Shown: in pieces, positions 1 through 60,480 of the stretch
Layout: each line of letters begins with the position of its first letter
How positions within the stretch are numbered: the stretch's first letter is position 1
The notes under the pieces: model-generated
The model's input: the letters and a program-made list of their open reading frames with translations, nothing else
The model's database searches: none
Told to the model about the DNA's origin: nothing
Translations under genes and position numbers: made by a program
Assembly (NCBI GenBank): GCA_947650365.1
Contig: OX393555.1
Coordinates: 19,075,592-19,139,591 of the forward strand
Length of the DNA: 64,000 bases
Direction of reading: 5' to 3'
Source of the DNA: Chamaelirium japonicum
Lineage: Eukaryota > Streptophyta > Magnoliopsida > Liliales > Melanthiaceae

Positions 1-3000
1 CAATGGCTATATTCGTACGAATGAATTAGAATGGCTATATTCGTACGAATGAATTAAAATGGCTACCTTCGTACGAATAAATTAGAACGGCTACATTCGT
101 ACAAATGAATTAGAGTGGCTACATTCATTCGTACGAATGAATTAGAATGGCTATATTCTTATGAATGAATTAGAATAGCTCATACTAATAAATTAGAATT
201 GCTACATTCGTACGTACAAATTAATTAGAATAGGTACATTCATACGAATAAATTAGAATGGCTATATGCGTACGGATGAATTAAAATGGCTACATTCGTA
301 TGAATGAATTAGAATGGTTATATTCGTATGAATGAATTAGATTAGCTACTTTTGTATGAATGAATTAGAATGGCTACCTTCGCACGAATGAATTAGAATG
401 GCTCCTACGAATGAATTAGAATGGCTACCTTTGTACAAATGAATTAGAATGGCTACATTCGTATGAATGAATTAGAATGACTATATTCGTACGAATTAAT
501 TAGAATAGCTACCTTTGTACGAATGTATTATAATGGCTACCTTCGTACGAATAAATTAGAACGGCTATATTCATACGAATGAATTAATGGTTACATTCAT
601 TCGTATGAATGAGTTAGACTGGCTACATTCGTACGAATGAATTAGAATATCTCATACTAATGAATTCGAATGGCTACCTTTGTATGAATGAATTAGATTG
701 AATACATTCGTACGTACGAAAGAATTAGAATGGTTACATTTGTACGAATAAATTAGAATCGCTATATACTTACGAATGAATTAAAATGGCTACATTCGTA
801 CAAATAAATTAGAATAGCTACCTTCGTACGAATGAATTACATTGGCTATATTTATACAAATATATTAGAATAGCTACATTTGTTCGTACGAATAAAGTAG
901 AATAGCTACATTCGTACGAATGAACTAGAATGGCTCGTATGAATAAATCAGAATGGCTACCTTCGTACGAATGAATTAGAATGGCTACATTTGTTTATAC
1001 GAATGAATTAGAATACCTAAATTCCTTCGAATGAATTAGAATGGCTCATACAAATGAATTAGAATGGCAACATTCATACAAATAAATTAGAATAGTTTGT
1101 ATGAATGAATTAGAATGGCTACCTACATACGAATGAATTAGATTGGCTACCTTTGTACGATTGAATTAGAATAGCTACATTCGTATGAATAAATTAGAAT
1201 GCCTATATTTGTTTATATGAATGAATTAGAATGGTTACATTCGTATGAATGAATTAGAATAGCTCGGATGAATGAATTACAAAGGCTACCTTCGTATAAA
1301 TGAATTACAATGACTACATTCATAAGAATGAATTTGAATGGCTATATTCCTTTATACAAATAAATTAGAATGGCTATATTCGTACGAATGAATTATAATG
1401 GCTCTTACGAATGAAATGGAATGGCTACCTTCGTACAAATGAATTAGAATGGCTACATTCGTAAGAATGAATTACAATGGCTATATTCATTTGTATGAAT
1501 GAATTAGAATGGCTATATTTATACGAATGAATTAAAGTGGCTCGTACGAATGAATTAGAATGGATACCTTTGTCTGAATGAATTAGAATGGATACATTCA
1601 TATGAATGAATTAGAATGGCTACCTTTGTACAAATGAATTAGAATAGTTACATTCGTACGAATGAATTAGAATGGCTACCTTTGTACGAATGAATAATAA
1701 TGGGTACATTCATATGAATGAATTAGAATGGCTACATTCATTCGTACAAACGAACTAGAATAGCTATATTCGTACGAATGCAATACAATGGCTCCTACAA
1801 ATGTATTAGATTGGCTACCTTTGTATGAATGACATAGAATGGCTATATTCGTACGAATAAATTAGAATTGCTATATTCGTTCGTTTGAATGAATTAGAAT
1901 GGCTACATTTGTACGAATGTATTAGATTGACTCGTATGAATGAGTTAGAAAGGCTGCCTTTGTACGAATGAATTAGAATTGCTACATTCGTACGAATAAA
2001 TTACAATGGCTCATACGAATGAATTAGAATGGCAATATTCATATGAATGAATTAGAATGGCTACATTCATTCATACGAATAAATTGGAATAGCTATATTC
2101 GTATGAATGAATTAGAATAGGTCGTACTAATGAATTAGAATGGCAACCATCGTAGGAATGAATTAGAATGATATATTCGAACGAATGAATTAGAATTGCT
2201 CGTACAAATGAATTAGAATGGCTATCTTTGTACGAATGAATTAGAATGGCTACATTCGTACGAATAAATTAGAATGGCTACATTTATTCGTACAAATGAG
2301 TTAGAATGGCCACATTCGTACGAATGAATTAGAATGGCTTATACGAATGAATTAGAATGGCTTATACGAATGAATTATAATGGCTACCTTCGTACGAATG
2401 AATTAGAATGGCTACATTCATACAAATGAATTAGATTGGCTCATACTAATGAATTAGAATGGCTAGCTTTGTACGAATGAGTTAGAATGACTATATTAGT
2501 ACAAATGAAATAGAATGGCTATATTCATTTGTACGAATGAATTAGAATGGCTACATTCATACGAATGAATTAAAATGGCTCGTATAAATAAAATAGAATG
2601 GCTACCTTCATACGAATGAAATAAAATGGCTACATTCGTAGAACAAATTTGAATGGCTCGTACAAATGAATTAGAAAGGCTACCATCGTATGAATGAATT
2701 AGAATAGCTATATTCGAACGAATGAATTGAAATAGCTATATTCATATGAAGGAATTAGAATCGATGTATTCATTCGTACCAATGAATTAGAATGGCCACA
2801 TTCGTACAAATGAATTAGAATGGCGCTTACGAATGAATTAGAATGGCTACCTTTGTACTAATGAATTACAATAGCTACATTCATATGAATGAATTAGAAT
2901 GCCTACATTAATTTGTACGAATGAATTAGAATGGCTACATTCATATGAATGAATTAGAATGGCTCGTATGAATGAATTATAATCGCTGCCTTCGTATGAA

Positions 3001-6000
3001 TGAATTAGAATAGCTATATTCGTACGAATGAATTAGAATAGCTATATTTGTACGAATGAATTAGAATAGCTTCGTTCGTACGAATGAATCAGAATGACTA
3101 CCTTCGTTCGAATGAATGAGAATGGTTACATTCGTATGAATGAATTAGAATGGCTACATTCGTTCGAACGAATAAATTAGAATAGCCACATTTCTTTGAA
3201 TGAATTAGAATGGCTCATACGAATGAATTAGAATGGCTACCTTCGTACGAATGAATTAGAATGGCTACATTCGTACGAATAAATTAGAATGGCTATATTT
3301 GCTCGTACGAATGAATTAGAAAGGCTACATTCGTCTATACGAATAAATTGCGTAGGCTATATTCGTTCGTACGAATGAATTAGAATGACTATATTAATTC
3401 ATACGAATGAATTAGAATGGCTACATTCATATGAATGAATTAGAATGGCTCGTATGAATGAATTATAATCGCTACCTTCGTACGAATGAATTAGAATAGC
3501 TATATTCGTATGAATGAATTAGAATAGCTACATTTGTACGAATGAATTAGAATAGCTTCCTTTGTATGAATGAATTAGAATGACTACCTTCGTTCGAATG
3601 AATAAGAATGGTTACATTCGTACGAATGAATTAGAATGGCTACATTCGTTCGTACGAATAAATTAGAATAGCCACATTTCTTTAAATTAATTAGAATGGC
3701 TCGTACGAATGAATTAGAATGGCTACCTTCATACGAATGAATTATAATTGCTACATTCATATGAATAAATTAGAATGGCAACATTTGTTCATACGAATGA
3801 AGTAGAATGGCTACATTCGTATGAATAAAGTAGAATGGCTCGTATAAATGAATTAGAATGGCTACCTTCGTACCAATAAATTAGAATAGCTACATTCGTA
3901 CGAATGAATTAGAATGGCTATATTCATTCATACGAATGAATTAGAATGGCTATATTCATTCGAATGAAATAGAAAGGCTCGTATGATTGAATTAGAATGG
4001 CTACCTTCGTTCGTACGAATGAATTAGAATGGATACATTCATACTAATGAATTAGAATAGCTCATATGAATGAATCAGAATAACTACCTTCGTACGAATG
4101 AATTAGAATGGCTACATCCGTACGAATTAATTAGAATGGCAACATTCGTTCGTACAAATTAATTTGATGCTACCTTCGTACGAAGAAATTAGAATGGCTA
4201 CATTCGTTCGAACGAATAAATTAGAATGGCTATACTCGTACGAATAAATTACAATAGCTCGTACAAATTAATTAGAATGGCTACCTTCGTTCGAATGAAT
4301 TACAAAGGCTATACTCATAAGAATAATTTGAATGGCTACATTCGTTAGTACGAATGAATTAGAATGGCTATATTCGTTCGAATGAATTATAATAGCTCGT
4401 ACGAATGAATTAGAATGGCTACCTTCGTATGAAAGAATTAGAATGGATACCTTTGTAAGAATAAATTAGAATGGCTATAATTATAGGAATGAATTAGAAT
4501 GAATATATTCGTTTGTACGAATGAATTAGAATGGCTACATTTATATGAATGAATTAGAATGGCTCATACGAATGAATTAGAATAACTACCTTTGTACTAA
4601 TAAATAAGAATGGGTACATTCGTACGAATGAATTAGAATGGCTAGCTTTGTACGAATGAATTAGAATGGCAACATTCATTCGTACGAATGAATTAGAATG
4701 TCTACATTTGTACGAATACATTATAATGGCTCGTACGAATGTATTAGCTTGGCTATTCATATGAATGAATTAGAATGGCTATATTCGTACGAATAAATTA
4801 GAATGACTTTATTCATTCGTACAAATAAATTAGAATGGCTACATTTGTACGAATGAATTAGAATGGCTCATACGAAAGAATTAGAAAGGCTGCCTTTGTA
4901 CGAATGAATTAGAATGGCTATATTCGTACGAATGAATTATAACGGCTTGTACGAATGAATTAGAATGGCAACCTTCATACGAATCAAATAGGATATAGCA
5001 CGTACGAATTAATTAGAATAGCTATATTCGTACGAATGAATTAGAATAAGTCGTAAGAATGAATTAGAATGACTATCTAACACGAATGAATTAGAATGGC
5101 TATATTCGTACAAATGAATTAGAATTACTCGAACGAATGAATTAGAATGGCTACATTCGTTCGTACGAATGAATTTGAATAGCAACATTCGTACGAATGA
5201 ATCAGAATGACTAGTACAAATGAATTAGAATGACTACCTTCGGACGAATGAATTACACTGGCTATATTAGTAAGAATGAATTTGAATGGCTACATTCATT
5301 CGTACAAATTAATTAGAATGGTTATGGCTTGTACGAATGAATTAGAAAGGCTATCATCGTATAATTTAATTAGAATGGTTACTTTCAAACGAATGAATTA
5401 GAATGGCTATATTCGTTCGAATGAATTAAAATGGCTCGTACGAATAAATTAGAATGCCTACCTTAGTACGAATGAATTTGAATGGCTACATTCGTATAAA
5501 GGAATTAGAATGGCTACATTCATTCGCAGAAATGAATCAGAATAGCTATATTCGTACGAATGATTTAGAATGGCTATCTTCGTACAAATGAGTTATAATA
5601 GCTACCTTCATAAGAACGAATTAGAATGGCTACCTTCATACGAATGAATTAAAACGGCTACATCCGTACGAATGAATTGGAATGGCTATATTCGTTCGTA
5701 CGAATGAATTAGAATGACCATATTCGTGCGAATGAATTAGAATGGCTTATATGAATGAATTAGAATGGCTACCTTCATATGAATGATTTAGAATAGCTAT
5801 ATTCATATGTATAAATGAATTAGAATGGCTACATTCGTATGAATAAATTAGAATGTCTCGTACGAATGAATTAGGATGGCAACCTTCGTATGAATGAATT
5901 AGAATGGCTACATTCGTATGAATGAATTAAAATAGCTACATTTGTTCATATGAAGAATTAAAATGGCTATATTCGTATGAATGAATTACAATGACTCGTA

Positions 6001-9000
6001 CGAATGAATTAGAATAGCTACCTTCGGTACGAATAAATTAGAATGGCTATATTCATATGAATGAATTAGAATGGCTTATACGAATGAAGTAGAATGGATC
6101 GTACGAATGAATTAGAATGGCTACCTTCGTACGAATGAATTAGAATGGCTACATTCGTGCAAATGAGTTAGAATGACTACATTTATGCATACGAATGAAT
6201 TAGAATGGATATATTCATACGAATAAAATATAATGGCTCATACGAATGAATTATAATGGCTACCTTCATACGAATGAATTAGAATAACTACATTTGTACG
6301 AATAAATTAGAACGGCTATATTTATTCGTATGAATGAATTGAAATGACAACATTCATACAAATGAATTAGAATGGCTCATACGAATGAATTAGAATCGCT
6401 ACCTTTGTATGAATGAATTAGAATGGCTATATTCGTTCGTACAATTGCATTAGAATGGCTACATTCGTACGAATGAATTAGAATGGCCATACGAATGAAT
6501 TAGAATGGCTACCTTCATATGAATAAATTAGAATGGCAACATTCATACGAATGAATTAGAAAGACAATATTTATTTATACGAATGAATTAAAATGGCTAT
6601 ATTCGTATGAATGAATTAGAATGGCTCGTACAAATAAATTTGAATGGCCACCTTCGTATGAATGAATTAGAATGGCTACATTCATATGAATGAATTAGAA
6701 TAGCTCATACAAATGAATTAGAATGGCTACCTTCGTATGAATGAATTAGAATGACTACATTTGTATGAATAAATTACAATGGCTCGTACGAATGAATTAG
6801 AATGGCTACCTTCGTACGAATGAATTACAATGGCTACATTCGTAAAAATGAATTTGAATGGCTATATTCGTTTGTACGAATGAATTAGAATTGCTACATT
6901 CATACGAATGAATTAGAATGGCTCATACGAATGAATTAGAATGGCTACCTATGTACAAATGAATTTAAATGGCTATATTCGTATGAATCAATTAGAATGA
7001 CTACATTCGTTCGCACGAATGAATTTGAATGGCTATATTCGTACGAATAAATTTGAATGGCTCATACGAAAGAATTAGAATAGCTAACTTTGTACAAAAG
7101 AATAAGAATGGCACATACGAATGAATTAAAATGGCTACCTTTATACGAATGAATTAGAATAGCTACCTTCATACGAAAGAATTAGAATGTTTACATTCAT
7201 ACGAAAGAATTAGAATGGCTACATTCGTTCGTATGAATAAATTAGAATGGCTATATTCGTACGTATTAATTAGAATGGCTCGCACGAATGAATTAGAATG
7301 GCTACTCTCATACGAATAAATTAGAATTGTGATATTTGTACAAATGATTTTGAATGGCTCAAACGAATGAATTATAATGACTACCTTTGTACGAATGAAT
7401 TAGATTGGCTACATTCATACGAATGAATTAGAATGGCTACATCGTTCGTACGAATGAATTAGAATAATTATATTCGTATGAATAAATTAGAATGGCTCAA
7501 ACAAATGAATTAAAATGACTACATTAGTACGAATGAAGTATAATGGCTATATTCGTATGAATGAATTAGAATGGCTACAATGGCTCGTACGAATGAATTA
7601 GAATGGCTACGTTTGTACAAATGAATTAGAATGGCTCATACAAATGAATTAGAATAGCAATCTTCGTACGAATAAATTAGAATGGCTACCTTCGTATGAA
7701 TGAATTAGAATGGCTACATTCGTACAACTGAATTAGAATGGCTACATTCGTTTGTACGAATGAATTAGTATGGCTATATCTATACGAATAAATTAGATTG
7801 GATCGTACAATGAATTAGAATGGCTATCTTTGTGCGAATGAATTAGAATGGCTACATTCGTACGAATGAATTAGAATGGCTACATTTGTACGAATAAATT
7901 AAAATGGCTACATTCGTTCGTATGAATGAATTAGAATGGTTATATTTGTATGACTGAATTAGAATAGATCGAACAAATGAATTAGAATGCCTACATTCGT
8001 ATGAATGAATTAGAATGGCCACATTCGTATGCATGAATTAGATTAGCTATATTGATACTAATAAATTAGAGTGGCTTATACGAATGAATTAGAATGTTTA
8101 GTTTGAATAAATTAGAATGGCTACCTTCGTACGAATGAATTAGAATGGCTAAATTCATACGAATGAATTAGAATGGCTACATTTGTTTGTACGAATGAAT
8201 TAGAATGCCTATATTTGTACAAATGAATTAGAATGGTTCGTACGAATGAATTAGAATGGCTACTTTCATACGAATGAATTAGAATGGCTATATTCGTACG
8301 AATGAATTAGAATAGCTACATTCGTTCGTATGAAGAACTAGAATGGCTACATTAGTATGTATGTATTAGAATGACTCGTACAAATGAATTAGAATGGCTA
8401 CCTTCGTCCGAATGAATTAGAATGGCTACATTCGTACGAATGAATTAGAATAGCTCGTACGAATAAAGTAGAATGGATCGTACGAATGAATTAGAATGGC
8501 TACCTTCGTACGAATGAATTAGAATGTATACATTCATTCTTACGAATAAATTAGAATAGTTATATTTGTACGAATGAGTTAGAATGGCTCGTACGAATGA
8601 ATTATAATGGCTACCTTGATACGAATGAATTGAAATGGCTATATTCGTACGAATGAATTAGAATGACTATATTCATTCGTATGAATGAATTGGAATGGCT
8701 ACTTTTGTACAAATGAATTTGAATGGCTCGTGCGAATGAATTAGAATGGCTCATAATAATGAATTAGAATGGCTACCTTCGTACGAATGAATTAGAATGA
8801 CTATATTCATACGAATGAATTAGAATGGCTACATTCGTTCGTACGAATAAATTAGAATGGCTACATTCATATGAATGAATTAGAATACCTACCTTCGTAC
8901 GAATTAATTAGAATGGCTACCTTCGTACAAAGGAATTAGAATGGCAACATTCATACGAATGAATTGGAAAGGCTGCATTCGTTCGTATGAATGAATTAGA

Positions 9001-12000
9001 ATAACTATATTCATACGAATGAATTAGAATGGTTCGTAAGAATAAATTAGAATGGCTACCTTCATATTAATGAATTAGAATGGCTACATTCATACGACTG
9101 AATTAGAACGGCTCGTACGAATGAATTAGAATGATTACCTTCATACGAATGAATTAGAATGGCTATATTCGTTCGTACGAATGAATTAGAATGGCTACAT
9201 TCGTACGAATGGATTAGAATGGCTCGTACGAATGAATTAGAATGGCTACCTTCGTACGAATGAATTACAATGCCTACATTCGTAAGAATAAATTTGAATG
9301 GCTATATTCGATTGTATAAAAAAATTAGAACGACTACATTTATACGAATGAATTAGAATGGCTCGTACGAATAAATTAAAATAGCTACCTTCGTACAAAT
9401 AAATTAGAATGGCAATATTTGTACGAATGAATTAGAATGACTACACTCGTTCGTACGAATGAATTAGACTGGCTACATTTGTACAAATGAATTAGAATGG
9501 CCCATACAAAAGAATTAGAATGGCTACCTTTGTACAAATGAATAGAAATGGGTCGTATGAATGAATTAGAATGGCTACCTTTGTACGATTGAATTATAAT
9601 CGCTATATTCGTACCAATGAATTAGAATGGCTATATTCATTCATATGAATAAATTAAAAAGACTACATTCATATGAATGAATTAGAATGGCTCGTACGAA
9701 TGAATTAGAATGCCTACCTTTGTACGAATGAATTAGAACGTTTACATTCATACGAATGAATTAGAATGGCTAAATTCGTTCATATGAATGAATTAGATTG
9801 GCTACATTTGTACGAATGAATTAGAATGGCTACTTTCGTATGATTGAATTAGAATTGCCACATTCGTTCGTATGAATGAATTAAAATAGCTATATTTGTA
9901 CAAATGATTTAGAATGGCTAGTACGAATGAATTAGAATGGCTACCTTCGTACGATGAATTAAAATAGCTACATTTGTATGAATGAATTAGAATGGCTACA
10001 TTGTTCGTACGAATGAATTAGAATAGCTATACTTGTACGAATAAATTAGAATGGCTCATACGAATGAATTAAAATAGCTACCTTTGTATAAATGAATTAG
10101 AATGACTACATTCGTTCGTGCGAGAGAATTAGAATGGATTCATTCGTTCGTACAAAAGAATTAGAATGACCTGTACAAATGAATTAGAATGGTTACCTTC
10201 GTACGATTGAATTCGAATGTCTATCTTCATACAAATGAATTAGAATGGCTATATTCGTTCGTACGAATGAATTAGAATGGCTATATTTATACGAAAGAGA
10301 TAGATTGGATCGTACGAATGAATTAGAATAACTATATTCGTACGAATTTATTAGAATGGCTACATTCGTTCATATAAATGAATTAGAATGGCTATATTCG
10401 TACAAATGAATTAGAATGGCTTGTACGAATGAATTAGAATGGCTACCTTCGTACGAATGAATTAGAATGGCTACATTCGTACAAATAAATTAGAATAGCT
10501 ATATCAGTTCGTATGACGAATTAAAAAACTTACATTCGTACGAATGAATTAGAATGACTCGTTCGAATGAATTAGAATAGCTACTTTTGTACGAATGAAT
10601 TAGAATGGCTATATTTCCTCATACGAATGAATTAGAATGACTGCATTCATACAACTAAATTAGAATGGCTCATACGAATGAATTAGAATGGCTACCTTTG
10701 TACGAATGAATTAGAATGGCTACATTTGTATAAATAAATTAGAATGGCTATATTTGTTCATACGAATGAATTAAAATTGCTATATTAGTATGAGTGACTT
10801 AGAATGGCTCGTATGAATGAATTAGAAAGGCTACCTTCGTACAAATGAGTTAGAATGGCTACATTCTTAAGAATAAATTAGAATGGCTACATTCGTTCAT
10901 ACGAATGAATTAGAATGACTATATTTGTACAAATGAATAAGAATAGCTCGTACGGATGAATTAGAATGGCTATCTTCATACTAATGAATTAGATTGGCCA
11001 CATTTGTTCATACGAATGAATTAGAATGGCTCGTATGAATGAATTAGAATGGCTTCCTTTGTAGGAATGAATTAGAACGGCTATATTCATTCGTACAAAT
11101 GAATTAAAATGGCTACAATGATACGAATGAATTAGAATAGCTCGTATGAATGAATTAGAATGGCTACCTTCGTACAAATAAATCAGAATGGCTACATTCA
11201 TATGAATTAATTAGAATGACTATATTTGTTCGTACGAATGAAATAGAATTGCTACATTCGTACGAATGAATTAGAATGGCTCGTACGAATGAATTAGAAA
11301 GGCTACCTTTGTACAAATGAATTAGAATGGCTACATTCGTACGAATGAATTAGAATGACTCGTAAGAATGAATTTGAATGGCTACCTTCATACGAATGGA
11401 TTAGATTGGCTACATTCGTACAAATGAATTATAAGGGCTACATTCGTTCATACGAATGAATTAGAATAGCTATATTCATACAAATGAATTAGAATGGCCC
11501 GTATGAATGACTTAGAATGGCTACCTTTGTATGAATAAATTAGAATGACTACATTCATTCGTACGAATGAATTAGAATGGCTACATTCATATGAATGAAT
11601 TAGAATAGCTCATATGAATGATTTAGAATGGTTACCTTCGTACGAATGAATTAGAATGACTATATCCGTACGAATTAATTAAAATGGCTATATTCGTTCG
11701 TACGAATGACTTAGCATGGCTATATTTATACGAATGACTTAGCATGGCTATATTCATACGAATGAATTAGAATGGCTACCTCTGTACAAGTAAATTAGAA
11801 TAGCTAAATTCGTTCGTACGAATGAAATAGAAATACTACATTCGTACGAATGAATTAGAATAGCTATATTCGTACGAATGAATTAGAATGGCTACCTTCA
11901 TACGAATGAATTCGAATGGCTATATTCGTATGAATAAATTAAAATGGCTACATTCATTTGTAGGAATGAATTAAAATGGCTACATACGTACAAATGAATT

Positions 12001-15000
12001 AGAATGGATGTACAAATAAATTAGAATTGCTACCTTCATACGAATGAATTAGAATGGCTACATTCGTACGAATGAATTAGAATGGCTACATTTATTCGTG
12101 AATGAATTAGAATGGCTACTTTCGTACGAATGAATTAGAATGACTCGAACAAATGAATTAGAATGGCTCGTACAAATGAATTAGACTGGCTACCTTCGTA
12201 TGAATGAATTAGAATAGCTATATTCATACGAATGAATTAGAATGGCTCATATGAATAAATTAGAATAGCTACCTTCGTACGAATGAATTAGAATGGCAGC
12301 ATTCATACGAATGAATTAGAAAGGCTACATTCGTTCGTACGAATAAAATAGAATAGATATATTCTTACGAATGAATTAGAATGGCTCGTACGAATAAATT
12401 AGAATTGCTACCTTCGTACGAATGAATTAGAAGGGCAACATTCATACAAATGAATTAGAAAGGTTATATTCGCTTGTACGAATGAATTAGAATGACTATA
12501 TTCGTACGAATAAATTAGAATTGCTACCTTCGTACGAATGAATTAAATGGCTACATTCATATGAATGAATTTGAATGGATTGTACGAATGAATTAGAATG
12601 GCCACATTCGTACGAATGAATTAGAATGGCTACATTCATACGAATAAATTAGAATGACTATATTCATTCGTATGAATGAATTAGAATGCCAACATTCTTC
12701 AAATGAATTAGAATGGCTCGTACGAATGAATTAGAATGGCTACCTTCGTACGAATGAATTACAATGGCTACATTCGTAAGAATAAATTTGAATAACTATC
12801 TTTGTACAAATGAATTAGAATGACTATCTTCGTACGAATGAATTAAAATGGCTCGTACGAATGAATTAGAATGGCCATCTTCGTACGAATGAATTAGAAT
12901 GGCTATATTTATACGAATGAATTAGAATGACTATATTTGTTCGCACAAATAAATTACAATGGCTATATTCGTACAAATGAATTAGCATGACTCATACAAA
13001 AGAATTAGAATGGCTACCTTTGTACAAATGAATAAGAATGGCTCGTACGAATGAATTAGAATGGCTACCTTTTTACGAATGAATTATAATGGCTATATTC
13101 ATACGAATGAATTAGAATTGCTATATTTGTTTGTATGAATGAATTAAAACGACTACATTCGTATGAATGAATAAAAATGGCTCGTACGAATGAATTAGAA
13201 TGGCTATGTTCGAACGAATGAATTATAACATTTACATTCGTATGAATGAATTAGAATGACTATATTCGTTCGTATGAATGAATTAGAATGGCTACATTCT
13301 TACGAATGAATAAGAATGCCTACTTTCGTACGAATAAATTAGAATGGCTACATTCAATTGTACGAATGAATTATAATGGCTATATTTGTACAAATGATTT
13401 AGAATGGCTCGAACGAATGAATTAGAATGGCTACCTTCGAACGAATGAATTAGAATGACTAAATTCGTACAAATAAATTAGAATGGCTACATCGTTCATA
13501 CGAATGAATTTGAATAACTCTATTCGTACGAATAAATTAGAATGGCTCATACGAATGATTTAAAATGGCTACCTTTGTACGAATGAATTAGAATGGTTAC
13601 CTTCGTACAAATGAATTAGAATGGCTCGTACGAATGAATTAGAATGGCTAGTTTCGTACGAATGAATTAGAATGGCTATCTTTGTACAAATAAATTAGAA
13701 TGACTACATTCATTCGTACGAATGAATTAGAATGGGTATATTCATACGAATAAATTAGATTGGATTGTACGAATGAATCAGAATTGCTACCTTTGTACAA
13801 ATAAATTAGAATGGCTATATTTGTACAAATGATTTAGAATGGCTACATTCATTCGTACGAATGAATTAGAATGGCTATATTTGTACGAATAAATTAGAAT
13901 TGCTATATTCAAACAAATGAATTAGAATGGATCGTACAAATGAATTAGAATGACTCGTATGAATGAATTAGAAAGGTTACCTTCGTACGAATGAATTAGA
14001 ATGGGTATATTCGTACGAATGAATTAGAATGGCTATATTCATTTATACGAATGAATTAGAATGGCTACATTCGTATGAATAAATTTGAATATCTCGTACG
14101 AATGAATTAGAATGGCAACCTTCGTACGAATGAATTAGAATGACTACATTCGTACGAATGAACTAGAATAGCTACATTCGTACGTATGAAGAATTTAAAC
14201 GGCTACATCCATACGAATGAATTACAATAACTCGTACGAATGAATTAGAATGGCTACCTTTGTACGAATGAATTAGAATGGCTATATTCTATAAATGAAT
14301 TAGAATGGCTTGTATGAATGAATAAGAATGGATCGTACGAATGAATTAGAATGGCTACCTTTGTACGAATGAATTAGAATGGCTACATTCGTGCAAATAA
14401 ATTAGGATGACTACATTCATTCGTACGAATGAATTAGAATAGGTATATTCGTACAAATGAAATAGAATAGCTCGTACGAATGAATTAGAATGGCTACCTT
14501 TAATACGAATGAATTAGAATGGCTACATTCGTATGAATAAATTAGAATGGCTACATTTATTCGTATGAATGAATTAGAATAACAACATTCATACAAATGA
14601 ATTAGAATTGCTCGTACGAATGAATTAGAATGGTTACCTTCGTATGAATGAATTAGAATAACTATATTTGTATGAATGAATTAGAATAGCTACATTCGTT
14701 CGCACGATTGAATTAAAATGGCTACATTCGTACGAATGAATTAGAATGGCTCATACGAATGAATTAGAATGGCTACCTTCATATGAATGAATTAGAATGA
14801 CTCATACAAATGAATTAGAATAGCAATCTTCGTAAGAATAAATTAGAATGGCTACCTTCGTATGAATGAATTAGAATGGCTACATTCATACAATTGAATT
14901 AGATTGGCTACATTTGTTCGTACGAATGAATTATAATGGCTATATCTATATGAATGAATTAGATTGGATCGTACAATGAATTAGAATGGCTACCTTTGTA

Positions 15001-15503
15001 CGAATGAATTAGATTGGCTACATTCGTACGAATGAATTAGAATGGCTACATTCGTTTGTACGAATGAATTAGAATGGTTATATTTGTATGAATGAATTAG
15101 AATGGCTCGTACGAATGAATTAGAATGCCTACCATCATATGAATGAATTAGAATAGCCACATTCGTACGAATGTTTTAGAATAGCTATATTTGTACAAGT
15201 GAATTAGAGTGGCTCTTATGAATAAATTATAATGGCTAGTACGAATGAATTAGAATGGCTACATTCATACGAATGAATTAAAATGGCTATATTCATACGA
15301 ATGAATTAAAATGGTTCGTACGAATGAATTAGAATGGCTACCTTCGTATAATTGAATTAGAATGGCTATATTCGTACGAATGAGTTAGAATAGCTACATT
15401 TGTTCGGATGAAGAATTAGAACGGCTACATTCGTATGAATGTATTAGAATGACTCGTACGAATGAATTAGAATGGCTACCTTCGTACGAATGAATTAGAA
15501 TGG
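1..15503. repeat. Short-monomer satellite array with higher-order structure
   Basis: The whole stretch consists of one degenerate motif of the type CATTCGTACGAATG followed by AATTAGAATGGCTA. Monomers come in three lengths that differ in the linker: about 23 bp (GGCTCGTACG...), 28 bp (GGCTACCTTCGTACG... or GGCTACATTCGTACG...) and 32 bp (GGCTACATTCGTTCGTACG...). They recur in the order 23-28-28-32, often with one more 28, giving a higher-order unit of about 111 or 139 bp; the stretch 8580-8720 shows one clearly. The array begins before the window and stops sharply at about 15503. No transposon interrupts it. Long minus-strand frames inside it, reading like NSFVRMNVAILIHSYE, are only the repeat translated. 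Confidence 0.97.
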
Positions 15504-18143: not shown

Positions 18144-21100
18144 CTACACGAGAAGATCCAAAGGAGAATTAGATCCGGCAAGTGACTAAAAAGGAAGAAA
18201 AAGTAGAAATAAGGAAACATGATGTGTTCGTCATGCAAACTACCAATGATATTTATAAAAAAAAAATGGGTTGAGCCCAGCTTGACAATATAAACCCTAC
18301 AATGCTTACATTCCTAGGTGAAGAACTAAGTTCACAATGATGCAAAAGATGTAGATTGTATACACAGAACCAAACAATTCTGTTTGTAAGTCTGTTTCTT
18401 ACAAACAATGGGTAACACTTACCAACTAGATTTATTACAATAGTTACGTCTTTTAATATTGTTTCACCATTGCTCTTTTCTTTCACTATAAACTAATATA
18501 GAAATATTAATTTTACTTTACACAGAATTATTTATCACTACCCAATGGGTTATTTGAACATTACATTATACACTTCTGAAACCGATGAAAATTGTTGGGA
18601 AAGATATGGAAAAACTTATATTGCCAACAAAAATAACACTTAACTGGGTTGATTTTGTGAATAATAAAGATTCATAAGGCCGACTCAAAATAGTTGAGAT
18701 ATGGCTATATGCGTATGATTCTAGTTAATTTTTATTTTTATTAAAATTAATGTTTTTCTAAAGAAATACAAGGTTAATTTGCAATGTATTTTAATTATAG
18801 ATGACGCAAAATTTTGCATATGCCGGTTTTTTTTTTTCCATGGTTGACGGAGCTTAAATCATACAACCAAAAATATAGATTTACCTACTCGTTAACTAGC
18901 CTTTTTGGTTTCATGGCATGCCCCTCTTGCAAAATTGTCTTAGTCAAGTTTCTAGCACCAATCTCAAAGGATTGATGCCGGGTTGACAACCATTGGACAA
19001 CAATCTTCTTTATTAATGAATATTGTAGTTATACATATGAGTTAGATGTATAGGACTCATTCCCTATACATGTATGTGCCTATATATTCATGGTTATTTG
19101 CCCTAATGACAATCGTCCGTTATTCTCCCAAACCTTAACCGTCTCTCTCTCTCTCTCTCCTAGGGTTGTGGTAATATGGTGTCAGAGCGGGTGTAATCCC
19201 CTCGCCATCCTCTTTCGCTGCCTTCCTCCCCGATCCGGCGACCTTGCCTGCGCTCGCGACGAGTTGCACCCTGAGTCCAAACCCACACTCGGCACTCCCG
19301 CACCCGATCGGCCCTCCATCGGTTTTAGTCGACCCCTCCAGCAGTCCACCGGCCTTTTGCTTGCCCTTCTGCAGCCAGCTGACTATCCGTCGGCGCTCCT
19401 GCAGCTTGCCGGTCTTTCGTCGGCCCTTCCTGCAGCCCACCAGCTATCCGCTGGCACTCCTGCAGCCCGCCAACCCTCCGTCGGCCCTCCTATAACCCGC
19501 CGACTATCCGTCGGTTCTTCTGCAGCCCGCCTGCCCACCGCCGACCGTCCTGCAGCCTGTCGGTCTTCCGCTGGCCCCTCCTGCAGCCCGACAACCCTCT
19601 GTCGGACCTCTGCAGCCTGCTGACTATCCGTCGGACCCTTCTGCAACCCGCTGTCGGCCTCCTACAATCCGTCGACCATTTCTGTAGTTCTGCCGGTGTT
19701 TCTACCGGCCCTCCCTTGCCTACTGACTCCTTGCTACTTGTGCCACGTAGCGCGTCATTCTGCCAACAGAGTCTCTGCGTCTTCTGCAGCTCTCGATGGA
19801 TTTTTCAGATCAATCGTCGATGGAGACTCCTGTGCAGACGACCCCTGTACAGTTCTCGACGACACCACTCGAGTAGACGAGGGACTTCCATTCTATCTCG
19901 ACTGACTTTTCCTTGGTCACGATTATTTACTGGACTGCGTGGTTTGTCACCGTCCGAAATGTCATGGATGGCCGAGCTCTGTATGGGTATCTTGATGATT
20001 CTACACCTGCTCCTGTTGATACCTCTAGAGCAGGGTCCTCTGACACCTCGAACCTGTGTGATCGTCGAGCCCGGACGTTTCTGGTTGCCTCGGTTGACCG
20101 CTCGCTTCGAACTGACCTGGTCACCTTCTACCGCAGCAAAGCTCTAGGTTCATCTCGTGGAGCGCTTTGTGGAGCCGAGTGGGGCCCGAAAATATCAGCT
20201 TCTCTCGTAGGCTCAGTCTGCTCAACAGGGGAAGCAGACGATTCAATAGTTTCACAGCCTTATGCATAGCTACTGGCATGAGCTCCAGGCTTTGGAGCCT
20301 CCTCTGTTAGAGGTGTCCAGAGTCTGTGCCTCCTGGCGCGAGCTTCAGTTCTTTCGGGAACGAAATTTACCAGTTTCTTATGGCTCTTCGACCTGAGTTC
20401 TCTCTCCTCACGGAACAGCTGATCCATAGGAATCCGCTTCCTCGCCTTGATGCTGTTGTAGCTAAACTTATTGCCGAGGAGACCTGTCTTTGCACTGTTG
20501 CAGCTCATCGGACCTCGGTACCCTCAAGTTATGAGGGTGTTCTTGCAGTTGCTCCACCTCCGGGACTCACTCCCACTGCTCCGCTCTTTCACGGTCCCTC
20601 CCATTCCTCCAGCGCGTCCGGTGGCCCATCTAACATTGATCGTTTTGGCTTTGCTGCAGTCACTTCCTACCCGCCCTCGTTCACTGCTTACCTTACCTCC
20701 CTTCATACTGACAGAGCGCTCAGGTCCTACAGAGAGGCACTGCAGTACCTTGTGTGGCAGCAAGCTATGCCTGAGGAGTTCAAGGTTTTGAGCAAACTCA
20801 GGCGTGGAAGGTTCTCCCTTTGCCTGCTGATGTTGAGCCCATTAGCTGCAAGTGGATCTTCAAGATTAAGCGTCATCATGATGGCTCCATTGATCGGTAC
20901 AAAGCCCGTCTCGTTGCCAGAGGCTTTACTCAGGAGTACGGGAATGATTACGACAAAACTTTTGCTCCGGTGGCTCAGATGACCACCATTCAGACCCTCC
21001 TTGCTATTGTTGCTGCTCGAGGTTGGCCCCTGCTTCAGTTGGATGTGAAGAATGTGTTCCTTCACGGTGATCTCTTCGAGGTTGTTTATATACAGCCTCC

Positions 21101-22690
21101 TCCTGATCTCAGCACGCCCTCTCAGCACGTTTGTCGTCTCCGTCGGGCTATTTATGGACTCAAACAGGCTTTTCATGTCTGGTTTGAGCGTTTTCGTCGT
21201 GCAGTTACAGAGATCGGCTTTGTGGAGAACTTCCAGGATCACTCCATGTTTGTGCAGATTTCTCCCCAAGGCAGGGCAATTATCATTCTCTTTGTTGATG
21301 ACATGATCCTTACTGGTGACGACTCGGGTGCCATAGCCTCTCTTCAGCAGCATCTTCAGAGTCAGTTTCAGATAAAGGACCTTGGTCCCCTGCGCTACTT
21401 TCTTGGCCTGGAGATTATTAGGGGTGCTTGGGGAATTTTGCTTTCTCAACAGTACATGGCTGACATCCTGGATCGTGCTGCTCTTTCTGACTGTCAGACA
21501 GTTGACACTCTTTTGAGCTTCATGTAAAGATCCGTCCTACTGATGGTGAGCCCCTATCAGATCCTACTAGGTAGCGAGAGATTGTTGGTCAGTTTGTCTA
21601 TCTTTGCATCACTAGGCCGGATATTGCACATACAGTTAGTATTTTTAGCCAGTTCGTGGATACACCTTACTCGGCTTATTATGATGTCCTTCTTCGGGTC
21701 CTTCGGTATCTACCAGGCACTATTATCAGATCACTTCTTTTCTTTTCGACCTCCTCTTTGGTTCTTCGTGTATAATCCTGCTGATTGGGCCGGTGATCCG
21801 ACTATACTCGTCACTCTACTACTGGATATTGCCTGTTTCTGGGTGACTCTTGATCTCTTGGAAGAGCAAGAAGCAGCAGGTTCTCTCTCCAGCACTGAGA
21901 CCGAGTTTTGTACAATGGCTACTACTACTAAGGAGGTTGTTCATTTACGACGTCTTCTTCGTGATTTTGGTGTCGCTACTTCTGGCCCTACAGCTCTTCA
22001 TTGCAACCAGGGTTTTAAATATCGGCCGATACCGGTACGTACCGGCCAGTACGTACCAGTTTTGGCCGGTTCGAGACCGGTACTGCATCCAATCCCGATA
22101 CCTAGCCCGTACCGGCCGGTACCGGTACTTATCGGTCCGTATCGGTCGGTTCAAGCCGGTACCGACCGGTACGGACCGGTACCGACAGGTTAAAGTTTTT
22201 TTTTTTTTTTTGGTTTTTTTCGGGGTTTTTTTCTCAACCGGTATCGGTCCGTATCGGCCGGTACCGGTACGTACCGGCCGGTACATACCGGTTCGGGACC
22301 GACCGATACCGTGATTTTAAATCTTGATTGCGACAACAAGAGTGCTATTCAGATTGTCAGCAATCCGGTTTTCCATGAACAGACAAAGCACATCGAGCTC
22401 GAATGTTACTTCTCCAGAGAGCAGTACGAGGCTGACTCTATCTCTTTGCCCTATGTGTCTTTCGCAGAACAGATTGGTGATTTTTTCACAAAGTCACATC
22501 CCTCTTCTCGTTTTCAGTTTCTTATTAATAAACTCTCAGTGTTTGATCCACCGTGAGTTTGAGGGGGAGTGTTAATGTATATTGTAGATTATACATATGA
22601 GTTAGGTGTACAGGACTCATTCCCTACATATGTATGCGCCTATATATTCGTGGCTATTTGCCTAATGAGAATCACCTGTCATTCTCCCAA

Positions 22691-22738
<48 letters not shown>

Positions 22739-25700
22739 CTAGGGTTGTGGTAGCATTCTTTATAGTCAATCCCATCTTGCATCTGGAAATCCATCTCCCA
22801 ATTTTCTAGACTACATACTTGCAAACTATAGTGAGAACTTATGAGAGATAACCAGCCCCACCCCATACCCTTCACTTTCTTCGCACTAATTTTGAGATTT
22901 CCGTGACTATTAATCTGAGGCGATCTATTTCACAATATTAGTAATGTACAAAAACTTGAAAAAAATTGATTAGCTTGGGTAGGATCAAGTAAAGAATTAC
23001 ACTAGGAATATAACCAACCAACTAGCCTTATCAAACCTATCTGAGCTCCACTTCATGAACTTAATACTACAGTAAAATCAAAAAAAAAATAAAGACATGC
23101 TGATTTTTGCATAATAAGTGGATACTGAACATTGTATTTGACAACCAACTAGCCTTATCAAACCTATCTGAGCTCCACTTCATGAACTTAATACTACAGT
23201 AAAATTAAAAAAAAAATAAAGACATGCTGATTTTTGCATAATAAGCCGATACTGAACATTGTATTTGACACACATAAATTTTATTATTGAACATCTAAAC
23301 TCTGTGCTCGTGAAACAACAAACCTTGGTGTAAGTCCGGATTCGTTGAAACGGGGGTGCCGGGGCCCAAGAACTTTTGTTCAAGAAACTACTCTCATCGA
23401 TAACAGAATCGATAGAATTGAATGCCATATCAGGAACCCCGAATGATTGGGAAACAATAGACGACGATAGCTCCTGTTGAGCATCTTTCGAGTTACTATA
23501 GTCAGCAATTGCATTTCCTGCGATGTGACTCTGGTACTTTCCCGAATCAACAGTGTTTGCCAGCAAGGGGTTGGTAGTCAGAGGTATTCCCAATGGATCT
23601 TCAATATTAACCCCAAAAAGGACATTAGTCCTAGGATCAGCACCCTGTACCTCACCATGTGGAGGTGCATCTCTAAACATTAATGGATGATTGAAAGACG
23701 AAAGTGGTAAGCTCTGTTGTAAAGGCCCGTCGTTCTGAGAAAGGCAGACTGAGGTCGCTGAAGAGGATGTGTCCACGTAATCCAATTGCGCTGTGTTGCT
23801 CAGATACGTTTGACGGGCAACAACTCCCTGACTTTGCACCTTAGGGAGTGCCGTCGAATGCCTCACATTTTGCTCGGATTTCGGAATCTCCTTCGCTACG
23901 TTGGGGCTTGCTGCCAGGGCTTCAAAAGAGCTGGGAGTTAACATTGTCACTGTCGATTGAGGGATCTTATCGGCCATGATTGCGCTGCGAAGGTGGGCCC
24001 TGTTTTGTATTGGCTGAGGAAGAACAACACTATTGTTTGTGGAAGGCGATGTGGAGCATGATGGGACATCGTCCGTGATCCCCGACTGCGCTCCAGCAGC
24101 TGGCAAAAAAGAGCTTCCGGTTGTCGGCAGAAGGTTCGTCGGTGCAGAAGGAAGGTTAGCAGCAAGGAGATCAGACGGAGGCAGTCGTGCGGCCAACGAA
24201 GTAGCTTCGGCGCATTGTTGAGAGATCGCTTGTTGCTGAGAAAGCGAGTTGGGGTTTGATCGATGCTGCGGTGCTTCCAAGAGTACTCTCGGCTGCTCTT
24301 GGATTTGGGTCAGATTAGGCACTTGCACTGGTGACTGCGACAAGAAAGACTGCTGCTGCTGCTGCTGCTGAAGCTTCCGTAGCAACTGAAGGTGGATCTG
24401 ATGTTCTGATAACTGGAATTGCTGGTTTGTTTGGTTGGTGAGCTGACCAGGCATCCTATTTTGCTGTAGCTGTTGCTGCTGTTGAATCTGTTGTTGCTGC
24501 ATTTGCTGTTGTTGCTGTTGGAGCTGTTGGTGCTGCTGCTGCAGTAGTAGCTGCTGATGTTGTTGGGGGTGACTATTGTGGAGATTGGTTTGCACTTGCT
24601 GTTGATTCTGTATGATCGGATGTTGTTGCTGGATTTGAGTCTGTACCAAAACTTGAGGCTGTATGAGATTAGCCTGGTTTTGGCTCATGGAAACTGTTTG
24701 ATTAACCAATTGCTGATGTGGCCTCTGCTGCACAGAGATATCTTGCATTTGCTGATGTGGCCTGGTAACGGAGCCCAACTGGTTCAGGGAGACGGGCACC
24801 TTTGGAAGTTGATCGATCTGTTGGGTCTGCTGAGGCAACATAGGAGCATTGAACTGTAGGTTGTCCTGCTGCAAGAGCTGGGCCTGCAAGCCCAACTGCC
24901 TCGGAAGATCAGTAGCTCCAATGTTCTGGATCGGTCCAGCTAGCGAGCGCATGTAATCAGACTGCATGTTTGAGTTAGCGAGCGAAGGATTGTGCTGCAT
25001 GTTCATCCACTGGACTAGGCTCAGACCAGGCATCACAGTGTTTTGTGACTGGGAATCCTTTATGCAGATCTCCTCGCCGAGCCACGGCATTGCCCTTTTA
25101 AAAAGATTTTCCATTTCAGACGCCTCGTCATCTGCAACATTGATCACCAATTAGCTAGATGGAAATTTCTCACTAAATTTTGTGAATATAATAAGATAAT
25201 AAGAGTAAAAGGGTGAGTAGCACTGTTATATCAGTAATTACAGTCATGGTTGATATAGGTCATTTTGTCCTTTCTGTTATTGGGCCTTAGCACCATATTC
25301 TTCTTTATTTTTAGTTACTTATTTTGTCCCAACTCACCACCGAATGCAGAATTTGGATAAAAGTCGAAATCCTACCCAAATTAAGCATTAGGAAATTTTT
25401 AATACAGTATCAATATCTGCATATGCATAATAATGGTTCCCCGAATTCCTCTAAATCTGACCATAAATAATGTAATCTGGTCTTAGCATTTTAAGATGCA
25501 TGGCACACAAGCAAGGTATCAAGATGTCACATCATCTCGTGAGCAGCTTCTTCCCATTTTTTCTGTTCTCATCAGTAGATATTGATGTTGAGCCTCGCAA
25601 GGCTCAGCTAACAATCGTGGAACCCGACATTCAAGAAGGTAAATAGTCTAATAAATTCATGTATATATATACCAATTTTTTTTAACCCAACCTTTTCAAA

Positions 25701-39992: not shown

Positions 39993-42900
39993 CTAGCGAG
40001 GAAAAACGGTTCTGACTCCCATAGCTTCTATATGCTGCTCCAATGCCTTTGTAAAGGGATCAGCAACATTGTCTGTAGATGCTATCTTAGTCACCGCTAC
40101 TTGCCCTTCCTTCTGAAACTGCCATATCAAGTGGTAGGGCTGTGCAAAAACCGACCCGAACCACCTAACCGAACCGAAACCGATCAAAATTTAACCGAAA
40201 TAACCGAACCGAACATCAAACCGAACCGAAAACAAACCGAACCGATAAAACCGATTAAATCGGTTTTGGTTTCGGTTCCCGAGTATGAAACACCGAACCG
40301 AAACCGAAAAAACCGACCCGACTTCTTAAATCATAAACACAACGGCCATAATACTTTTGTTTCCAGTAAGTGCAAGTACGTACGAAGTAATTATGTTACA
40401 TTTACAATGCTTCAAAAGAGTGAACGTCGGTTGATTTTGCTTTGAACTTTCATTTTGGCACTATGTAAGAACATAATCATCCACTTATTTGTGATGAACT
40501 GACGATTAAGATTCAAGAGCCAAGGGTTCTAGCATAACTCATATTAACCGAAACCGAACCGAAAACCGATCACACCGAACCGACAAAAACCGACCATTTC
40601 GGTTTCGGTTTCGGTTTTGATTTTTTGAAAACTGAAAAAAAATAAAACCGACAAAACCGACACCGAAACCGACCGACAAAACCGACGCTCACCCCTATCA
40701 AGTGGAACTTGCATTCAATATGTTTTCCCTTCTGGTGGTGCCTTGGCTCCTTGGCCTGTGCTACCGCTATACTATTGTCGCAATAAAGGACAATAGGTGA
40801 CTGAGCCTCTGGTACGCACCCTAAGTCCAATAAGAACTTTTTAAGCCACACCGCCTCTTTTCCAGCTTCGCACGCTGCAATGTACTCAGCATCAGTGGTG
40901 GAGTCTACAATGCAACCTTGCTTCACACTCCACTAACTTACTGCTCCTCCTACTAACATGAAAACATAATCTGAAGTTGATTTTCTGGATTCCACATCTG
41001 ACATAAAGTCAGCATCCGTGTATCCAATTAGCGTCAGGTCCTGTGAAGTGTAAACTAACTCATAATCCCTCGTACGATGAATGTACTTAAGTATACTCTT
41101 TACAGCAGTCCAGTGTGCTGGACCCGGGTTCGACTGAAACCGACCCATTATATCTACTGCAAAATAGATATCTGGCCTCATGCATTGTATGACATATATT
41201 AGACTACTCACTGCTGAAGCATAGGGTATCTTCTGCATCTCTGCCTTCTCCTCAGGTGTCTTAGGATATTGATCCTTAGAAAATTTCAAGTCATATCTAA
41301 ATGGCAAAAAATCCTTCTTGGAGTCCTGCATGCTAAATCTGGCCAGTATCTTATCTATATAAGCAGCTTGTGAGAGCGAGAAAGTCTTGTTCTGGCGATC
41401 TCGAATTACCTTAATCCCCAAAACATAACTCGCCTCACCTAGGTCTTTCATGTCGAATTGCGAGGATAACCAAACTTTTACCATAGATAAAGTTCCTATG
41501 TCATTTCCAATCAGTAGTATATCATCTACATAAAGTACTAAATATACCACTGTAGTATTATCACTCTTTTTGTACACACAAGGTTCATCCTCATTTTGAT
41601 CAAATTCATATGAGCGGATTGTCTGATCAAAACGGATGTTCCAACTTCTGGATGCTTGTTTCAGTCCATAGATGGACCTCTGAAGTTTTCAAACCAGATC
41701 TTCCTGACCTACTGACTCAAAACCTAGAGGTTGCATCATATATATGTCTTCCTCCAAATCCCCGTTGAGGAAAGCTTTCTTAACATCCATCTGCCAGATC
41801 TCCCAATCATAGTGGGCTGCGATGGATAAGAGGATTCGAATAGACTTAAGCATAGCTACCGGTGAGAAGGTCTCGTCATAATCGATATCCCTTCTCGATG
41901 GGGAAACCCTTGGCAACTAGTTTAGCTTTATAAGTCTCAACGGAACCATCAGGTCCTCTTTTCTTTTTGTACACCCACTTACACCCAATAGGTTTAATAT
42001 TGGGTGATGGTGTAACAAGTGTCTAGACATTGTTTTGGGACATAGATGCAATTTCTGCCTCTATGGCTTTTGGCCAAGCAGAACTGTCAGAATATTTTAT
42101 CGCCTCATCATAGCTCAAGGGATCATCCTCCTGAATCTCTGGATCAACTAATAAAGTCTCTCTATAGTATCTTTCAGGAGCTCTGATTTGTCTCCCACTG
42201 CGACGAGGTAATGATGGTACTAAGCGATTCGTTTCTACAGTCTCTGGTAAAATAGTTTCAATGTTACCTCTTCCCTCTATGTTACCGGATGTGCTACCTC
42301 CACCAGTACCTTCTTATCCTTAGGATCATAGAATATACCACTTTTTGTTTCTTTAGGATAGCCTATGAACAGACATATCTTAGACTTTGTCTCTATCTTA
42401 TGCCTCTTGTCCTTTCACACATGTGCAGGATATCCCTATATTATGAAATGTTGCAGTGTAGGCTTTCGCTTTGACCACAGTTCTCTAGGAGTTATAGGCA
42501 CTGATTTGGATGTGACATGGTTTAAGATACATGCTGCTGTTAATAGGGCATATCCCCAAAATGTGGTCGGTAAACTAGCATAACTCATCATACTACGGAC
42601 CATGTCCAACAAGTTCCGATTCCTTCTCTTAGAAACTCTATTCTGTTGTGGTGTACCTGGAGCAGTCAAATGGGATACAATTTCACTGTCTCGGAGATAC
42701 CCAAGAAACTCGTTTGATAGGTACTCACCTCATCGATCAGATCGAAGGGCTTTTATATATCTACCAGTCTGCTTTTCAACTTCGGCTCTGAATTCTTTGA
42801 ACTTGTCAAAGGACTCAGACTTCCGATGCATTAGTTAGATATAGCCATATCTTGAGTAATCATCAGTAAACGTGATGAAGTACTCATTGCCTCCTATCGC

Positions 42901-44458
42901 TTGGACACTCATGGGTCCATATACATCAGAATGAACTAACTCTAATATCTCTGTAGCTCTATTCTCTTTGGCTTTAAAAGCCCTCTTGGTTATTTTACCC
43001 TCCAGACAAGACTCACAGGTTGGAAGGATCTCCGAGGGATCTGTTTCCAGAAGCCCGACCTTGACCAACCTATGAATTCTATTTGAGGCAATATGCCCAA
43101 GTCTTAGATGCCACAATAGAGTTAGATTTTCTGAAGGTTTCTTGCGTTTAGATGAGTTAATATTCAAAGCGGTTATGTTTTCTTTCTCTAATTTAGGACT
43201 TAGAATATAGAGACTATTCTGAACTGTTCCTCTAATAATGAAGGTTCCATTCATTCTAATAGACACACCAGATGTATCAAAAAGAACTGAATAACTATCA
43301 TTCACCATTGAAAAAACAGAAATTAAATTATGTCTCAAGGACGGTACATATAATACGTCTCTTAGAATCAAAGTCTTTTCATTAGAAAAAGATAAATAAA
43401 CATCTTCAACTGCTTCTGCGACTGCAATAGCATCAGTCCCCATGCTCAGGACCACTTCTTTATCAAGTAGCCTTCTGCTTACCTGGAATCCCTGTAAAGA
43501 GTTACAGGTATGGTCAGTGAAACCAGAATCTACAATCCAAGATGCAAAAGAACTGCTACTTGAAAGAAGTGACTCAACTACAAGTAGCTGAGAATTACCT
43601 GTCCTAGCACCCTGAGGCTTTGTGCAGTCCTTTTTCCAATGGCCCTTTTCGCCACATCTGAAGCACTTCGTGCTTGGTGACTTCATCTTGATCTCTTGAC
43701 CTAGAGGTCCCCACATGGTTCTGCAGAGGCCCTGCCTTCAGCTTCTTGTTCTTAGGCTTCTTGCTCAGAAGCTTCTTAGCCTTCAGAGCAGCCCTACGCT
43801 TAGCACTTAATGCCTCACATTTAACCTTGAACTCGTCTTCTGCTGCCTGGAAAGCTCCAAGAAGCTCTGTATTTGTCATCTCCAACTTTTTAAGGTTGAA
43901 GTTAGTGACAAAGCCTTCAAAGGTTCCAGATTGGGACACAAAGAAGATATCAGTCATAACCTCGTTATCCAGCACAATGTTCATGGTAGCCAGTTCGTTC
44001 TGGAACTCAAACATTTTCAGAATATGTTCCCGGACAGGTGTTCCTTCAGACATCTTAGTGCTAATGAGCTTTTTTATTGTGAGGTATCGCGTTACGCGAC
44101 TATACCCGTCAAATATTTTTTTGAGGTATAGCATCATATCAGAAGCATCAGGCATTTCTTCGACTTACTTCTGTAAAGTTATTTGCAAGGAAGCTATGAT
44201 ATAGAACTTGCACATCTTATTAGAATCTCGCCAGTCGGAGAAAGCCTTGATCTCTGCCTCAGTGGCATCTGGACCCGGTAGGTTCAGTTCCTGAGTGGTT
44301 AGGGCTATATTGTGTTTATCGATCCTCAAAACAAGCATGAAGTTGCGTTTCCAGTCCTCATAGTTAGGACCCATAAGCTTGTTATCATTTAGGATGGCAG
44401 ATAAGGGGTCTAGTTTGGTCATCTGAAAAATAAATGGGAGTATATTAGAATGCTTCAT
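39993..44458 (-). other. Decayed Copia coding region (gag, protease, integrase, RT, RNase H)
   Basis: The gag, zinc knuckle, protease, GAG-pre-integrase (LWHLRLGHIASNRIHRL), integrase core, reverse transcriptase (QMDVKKAFLNGDLEEDIYM, YVDDILLIGN) and RNase H (GYTDADFMSD) parts occur in Copia order on the minus strand. I treat it as a fossil coding region, not as a host gene. Confidence 0.92.
40135..40697. mobile_element. hAT-type MITE nested in the Copia RNase H region
   Basis: A perfect 8 bp target duplication TCAAGTGG (40127-40134, 40698-40705) flanks ends TAGGGCTGTGC and (reverse complement) TAGGGGTGAGC. Inside are many copies of AACCGAACCGAAACC-type words on both strands. It is non-coding and younger than its Copia host. 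Confidence 0.93.
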
Positions 44459-60477: not shown

Positions 60478-60480
60478 ATC

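Follow-up and report, generated by a model that had tools for sequence, protein, structure and literature searches.

A five-monomer, 139-bp order in a small satellite array of Chamaelirium japonicum and its probable place in the Chio family

The left part of a 64,000-base stretch of chromosome C7 of Chamaelirium japonicum (C7:19075592-19139591, hereafter the window) is occupied by a satellite array of very short monomers, whose lengths follow an order far from random. The repeating order is 23-28-28-32-28, that is, five monomers that together make up 139 bp, and the same order recurs in arrays on other chromosomes. Chionographis japonica, which in the NCBI listing is Chamaelirium japonicum, has holocentromeres made of the satellites Chio1, of 23 bp, and Chio2, of 28 bp, which are distinguished by one substitution and a 5-bp deletion (PMC10264360). 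Very short monomers, considered unusual in the initial annotation of the window, are therefore normal in this plant, whose main satellite has monomers of 23 and 28 bp. On balance, we lean to seeing in the array a small outlying member of the Chio family, a third subfamily in which a preformed 139-bp block was amplified, dispersed and left to decay with little homogenisation.

Anatomy of the array and order of its monomers

Tandem Repeats Finder (TRF) reports one tandem array at window positions 2-15503, with periods of 28, 139, 111 and (from position 13) 51 bp, in addition to small internal rows. By TRF and monomer segmentation the satellite covers window positions 1-15503 on the plus strand and resolves into 562 monomers, of which 346 measure 28 bp, 120 measure 23 bp and 96 measure 32 bp. 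The large short-monomer satellite described there in the initial annotation is indeed a single array, but these 15.5 kb are only its right part. The array extends leftward for about 9.06 kb, to position 937 of the adjoining locus L009 (loci are designated by L numbers), and measures in all about 24.6 kb, at about C7:19066528-19091094; in the next 10 kb leftward (L010) the cluster scan found no cluster of the array satellite. Best segmentation of the whole array yields 889 monomers, namely 185 of 23 bp (S), 544 of 28 bp (M) and 160 of 32 bp (L), with M1 denoting an M-type variant that was counted separately. S corresponds to M minus the 5-bp ACATT, and the L consensus, TTCGTTCG, to M with TTCG repeated. 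Every arm runs forward, both the 561 of the window and those of the L009 part; the sole reverse call nearby (L009 747-769) falls outside the array. Inspection of the array ends by eye revealed no target-site duplication. Recent large duplications within the array were considered and rejected, since among the 193 internal matches listed, array-end pairs aside, the best spans just 342 bp at 86% identity, with a lag of 2.5 kb.

In the whole array the order SMMLM occurs 83 times, against a mean of 7.6 and a maximum of 20 in 2000 shuffles, and in the window alone 54 times, against a mean of 4.8 and a maximum of 13. The order is imperfect, as the perfect blocks hold 270 of the 562 window monomers. 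Between successive S monomers of the whole array, 72 SMMLM blocks compare with partial ones, of which the commonest are SMM (21), SMLM (16), SM (11) and S alone (10). A fixed order of 23-28-28-32, with a super-unit of 111-139 bp, had been proposed in the initial annotation. Its non-random character stands, but the unit has five monomers rather than four: across the whole array, 124 of the 160 L monomers lead into M and then S and 3 straight into S, and the four-monomer cycle 23-28-28-32-23 is seen once. Ungapped self-identity of the window array points in the same direction, reaching 0.512 at lag 139 (mean 0.372 and maximum 0.398 in 200 shuffles of monomer order) and 0.476 at lag 111 (mean 0.376, maximum 0.406). 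Both lags exceed all 200 shuffles, and the outcome to be feared for the proposal, a 28-bp period alone with random linker order, was not seen. The dominant super-unit is 139 bp; the 111-bp lag fits four-monomer steps within it, together with blocks that lack one 28-bp monomer. A four-monomer unit was rejected for the window array, yet it is the main order of locus L017, described below.

The monomers of the unit can be told apart by more than their length. Specifically, the first M after S has C at base 10 (ACC for ACA) in 90% of the 58 exact-length blocks of this array and in 88% of 283 such blocks of other arrays, a set that includes both L015 and L016, which are near copies; in the other two M monomers this C is found in at most 3% of exact-length blocks. 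Because the five positions of the unit bear marks besides length, amplification of a multi-monomer block, and not of single units, is supported, as had been suggested at the outset. A fixed monomer order beyond chance is thus present, as in a classical higher-order repeat. Near-identical unit copies are not: exact-length 139-bp blocks are about 17% apart, and the order is consequently eroded, not fresh.

Most changes run from C to T or from G to A. In 15 stretches whose blocks were phased (L015 and L016 being both included), the cytosine of the cytosine-guanine dinucleotide (CpG) has changed to T in 21% of cases and its guanine to A in 24%; outside CpG the values are 16% for C to T and 12% for G to A, and A/T sites have changed by about 4%. 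Change in the window array amounts to 0.25 at CpG and 0.15-0.18 at other GC sites, compared with 0.18 and 0.06 in Chio1-type loci (L033-L040) and with 0.17 and 0.11-0.14 in loci of mixed composition (L029-L032). At a substitution rate of 5-7e-9 per site and year, a change of 4% might correspond, as a guess at scale only, to some 6-8 million years.

Relation to the Chio satellites and distribution in the genome

Exact counts were taken over the assembly of 1,518,659,071 bases. The commonest 23-mer form, GGATCGTACG, has 1,956,045 exact 26-base matches and the commonest 28-mer form, GGATACATTCGTGCG, has 446,347. As the difference between the two, one substitution plus a 5-bp deletion, is the published one, we take them to be Chio1 and Chio2, matched by the published description rather than by published letters. 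The window array shows the trait of the family, monomers of 23 and 28 bp set apart by a 5-bp deletion, and consists of neither main form: the whole array holds no exact Chio2 26-mer and four exact Chio1 26-mers. Identity of its 28-mer with Chio2 was rejected, the GTGCG 28-mer being about 240 times commoner genome-wide. Exact counts of the window-type monomers are 1,826 for M, 759 for M1 and 2,879 for S, although some S matches are solitary ones within Chio-rich stretches, where they may represent point variants. Judged by its letters, the window array is a third, rare Chio subfamily, with GGCT for GGAT and an extra 32-bp monomer. Its abundance is roughly 2-4 Mb. The lower estimate, 2.1 Mb, multiplies the 759 M1 places by 2.76 kb per match (46 matches in 126.7 kb of arrays, with L016, which copies L015, omitted; mixed arrays contain M1 too, 7 matches being in L029-L032), and the higher, 4.0 Mb, is derived from a 44-mer with 588 places (16 matches in 109 kb of L011-L028, with L015 and L016 both counted and mixed arrays too); both are rough, because the arrays were picked by similarity to the window.

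The five-monomer order is shared by the other arrays of the subfamily. With stretches of one array merged, 14 of 15 arrays, among them the window array, contain more SMMLM than any of 200 shuffles, and L017 is the exception (L024 was omitted for its N bases and L016 as a copy); with stretches kept separate, this holds for 20 of 24. Among the loci, L018 and L019 are neighbouring pieces, and likewise L021 and L022. The 14 arrays sit on seven chromosomes, C1, C2, C4, C5, C6, C7 and C8. The loci L015 and L016 (C5, 79.43 and 86.29 Mb) are 99.66% identical over 10 kb in opposite orientation, and represent either a recent duplication or an assembly duplicate.

Centromere units of Chio are arrays of 0.24-4.46 Mb with mixed directions (PMC10264360), a description from which the window array departs in both its 24.6 kb and its single direction. 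In its surroundings (C7 18.5-19.5 Mb), none of the 19 readable 300-bp samples contained a satellite run (20 were taken, one being all N); isolated monomer-like matches, one or two in each of 5 of these 19 samples, are taken as chance. Over C7 9-28 Mb, Chio1-type runs were present in 2 of 20 samples, at 20.5 and 21.0 Mb. About 150 kb to either side of ten other islands of the subfamily, Chio runs were likewise found in 2 of 20 samples, L081 (C1 76.4 Mb) and L096 (C8 11.0 Mb), one sample (L092) having 69 N, and for 8 of the 10 islands no run was seen on either side. On C1 up to 52 Mb, 20 exact M1 places cluster at 14.12, 14.47, 14.92, 37.17 and 47.02 Mb, and Chio-form places, among the matches listed, lie at 1.4-3.2, 10.3-10.9, 17.1-18.1, 27.2-31.1, 40.2-41.1 and 49.0-51.0 Mb. 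A test of avoidance of Chio stretches would need more than five clusters. In the places sampled, the GGCT subfamily lies mostly outside Chio units.

The motif CGTACG forms with its arms a palindromic dyad, and is intact in 0.27 copies per window monomer. Hairpin folding gives a z of -6.8 for the 139-base consensus and of -1.1 and -1.9 for two real pieces of the window. In the window array, L009 and L011-L032 taken together, 42 direction changes at the dyad (22 tail-to-tail, 20 head-to-head) stand against 6,090 same-direction joins; the window array has no switch among its joins, and L029-L032 hold 39 of the 42. The templates were cut at the dyad and the result leans to it accordingly; as controls on this bias, 3 switches run across 1-60 bp of unparsed sequence, and both arms are of full length at 35 of the 42 junctions. 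Genome-wide, exact palindromes occur at 4,185 places head-to-head and, for Chio1 tail-to-tail, at 3,267, counts that cover dyad junctions only. The 26-base head-to-head palindrome was also considered as the mark of a dispersed element and rejected, all 8 places examined (of the 4,185) being Chio1-type arrays. The loci L029-L032 (C2:93.695-93.715, C1:133.265 and C3:62.155 Mb) mix GGCT 28-mers with GGAT 23-mers and switch direction every 0.1-3 kb, turning at the dyad; in L029-L030 the sequence appears to recur at an offset of about 14 kb. The passages of PMC10264360 that were covered, in which mixed direction is reported, yielded no statement on turning points at the dyad.

Origin of the dispersed arrays

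In the history that we favour, the five-monomer 139-bp block would have formed first, with the 32-bp monomer arising from the 28-bp one by repetition of TTCG and the 23-bp one by loss of ACATT, and would then have been amplified to kilobase-long, mostly head-to-tail arrays. These would have been placed at many sites, mostly outside the megabase-sized centromere units and probably in one wave, for example via extrachromosomal circles; a single circle-borne wave is the route held likeliest. Subsequent decay would be due chiefly to deamination of methylated cytosines and to gain and loss of single monomers, with little homogenisation, and the arrays would be devoid of centromere activity. Chio arrays are reported to have high CpG methylation, as described in PMC10264360, and the authors of the Chionographis papers consider both gene conversion and circle reintegration possible for the spread of units, by a mechanism that they describe as unknown (PMC10264360, PMC12722358).

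In favour of such a history stand the shared block with its positional marks, its dispersal, the excess of C-to-T and G-to-A changes, the near-equality of divergence within and between arrays, and samples around the window array that are free of satellite runs. A number of observations weigh against it. Block divergence, computed on exact-length blocks only, is 0.1705 within arrays and 0.1737 between them (321 blocks of 14 arrays, dropping L016 and L017, the latter with one block). The near-equality itself speaks for the history, but there is a gap of 0.0032, as large as which arose in 6 of 500 permutations; moreover, 78 of the 321 blocks have their nearest block in their own array, against 35.0 expected. 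The gap is small and probably real. Since blocks of one array are slightly closer to each other and nearest blocks are found there in excess, local duplication or conversion continued to some extent. Equal divergence within and between arrays (0.1717 and 0.1734, a gap of one permutation standard deviation) was rejected after stretches of one array had been merged; for the unmerged stretches, the nearest block was in the same array for 44 of 315, with 25.6 expected. The compared arrays, L011-L028, were selected by similarity to the window. One of them, L017 (C1:37163500-37173499), follows at its positions 1701-7566 the order 23-28-32-28 (SMLM), of 111 bp, in 40 copies. A/T-site change is alike in the window array (0.049-0.058), Chio1-type loci (0.052) and mixed loci (0.028-0.053), so that its heavier decay concerns C and G sites only and, by A/T sites, it is not clearly older. 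Some islands, such as those at C1 76.4 Mb and C8 11.0 Mb, may border Chio-rich stretches. Finally, the published cluster CL73 and the window repeat may be the same thing, in which case the islands would not be inert.

Continuing interlocus gene conversion throughout the genome, in place of one wave, would also produce near-equal divergence within and between arrays, and centromere units cluster in interphase, with interlocus conversion being proposed by the authors (PMC10264360). Active conversion should, however, hold divergence lower than the roughly 17% observed between blocks, which is rich in C-to-T and G-to-A changes, and we regard this explanation as unlikely. A similarly improbable alternative is that the array is a fragment of a functional, CENH3-binding Chio unit, severed by retrotransposons or rearrangement. 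The satellite family is the same, Chio runs were met near two of the ten islands, and CL73, from which the fragment would perhaps derive, is a higher-order cluster containing Chio1/2 with 11.7-fold enrichment in CENH3 chromatin immunoprecipitation (PMC10264360). Yet the array is far smaller than the published units, runs in one direction whereas these mix directions, is composed of neither main Chio form and is surrounded by samples free of satellite runs.

Carriage by a transposon containing the tandem repeat, such as a Helitron or a long terminal repeat (LTR) element, would account for the dispersed sites. With the satellite masked, other sequence is common to 36 of 210 locus pairs (the window entering up to base 40000 and L028 without flank), and flanks with nothing in common were rejected for this reason; moreover, in L018, L024 and L026 an LTR-like stretch, 84-87% alike, ends directly at the border of the array. 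However, this comparison found no sequence common to all array junctions, and the most-shared stretch lies at distances from the arrays that vary and reach more than 20 kb; this dispersed repeat is present in L010, L011, L015/L016, L020, L021, L022 and, near 39 kb, in the window. The LTR-like edges may have been added later, perhaps by a retrotransposon inserting into the GGCT satellite, and the authors of PMC10264360 saw no similarity of Chio to annotated transposons. Transposon carriage is thus very improbable. As a separate observation, L010 and L009 contain a pair of 1.2-kb direct repeats, 95.5% alike, which start 7.9 kb from each other and resemble the LTRs of a single element; relatives occur near six other loci and, at about 39-64 kb, in the window.

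More tentatively, and with rather more doubt than confidence, the dispersed GGCT arrays might be a fossil record of holocentromere spread, seeds laid in an early wave by the 139-bp block. Chio1/Chio2 units would have grown later at some of these sites, from the block or a sister of it, and others would have been left behind; the GGCT S monomer with its linker deletion and the GTACG 28-mer would then stand near the ancestral forms. The question addressed is how centromere units spread along the whole chromosome. A dispersed, small and non-expanded relative of the centromeric satellite offers sites at which conversion and circle reintegration can be compared, by means of the shared block, of the points of insertion and of whether Chamaelirium has the arrays or lacks them.

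To the right of the array, window positions 15504-64000 (no strand assigned) contain retrotransposon pieces and other DNA, as seen by cluster scan, open reading frames and Pfam, and the cluster scan found no further satellite cluster there. Pfam matches comprise RVT_2 (20820-21527 and 40933-41577), Pol_BBD, GAG-pre-integrase and a zinc knuckle (42835-43716), and a retrotransposon gag reading frame (60435-62192), directly after which lie two more tandem arrays, 107 bp x 6.3 (62447-63114) and 67 bp x 8 (63206-63743). A GC-rich 30-bp minisatellite of about 10 copies (19363-19653) overlaps an open frame (19090-19623). On the minus strand, a glutamine-rich open frame of 656 amino acids (23180-25150), without a Pfam match at E 0.001, is reminiscent of the mid-region of plant auxin response factors.

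Comparison with known satellites

In human alpha-satellite, higher-order repeats arise by amplification of a whole block whose distinguishable monomers keep a fixed order, and their copies are near-identical. The window array differs in that its block copies are about 17% apart and in that the arrays are small and dispersed. The Chio family is already known and the dispersed higher-order variant may be new; the literature covered, including passages of PMC10264360 and PMC12722358, yielded no description of the GGCT subfamily.

With Chio1 and Chio2 (PMC10264360) the array has in common 23- and 28-bp monomers with a 5-bp linker deletion, the palindromic dyad and the genome itself. It differs in GGCT for GGAT, in a 28-mer with GTACG where the common 28-mer has GTGCG, in the extra 32-bp monomer and in the fixed 139-bp order; besides, GGCT arrays are small, mostly one-directional and, where sampled, mostly outside the units. 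CL73 is alike in being a higher-order form of Chio monomers, a comparison made by description alone (PMC10264360). The 60-bp centromeric satellite of Chamaelirium luteum, Chama, shares with Chio the sequence TTCGTACGA, which is also the dyad of the window array, and its arrays have, like the present ones, consistent orientation and a higher-order organisation (PMC12722358). Chama is unlike the window array in its 60-bp monomer and in its highly homogeneous arrays of 9.58-15.30 Mb, which constitute an active centromere (PMC12722358).

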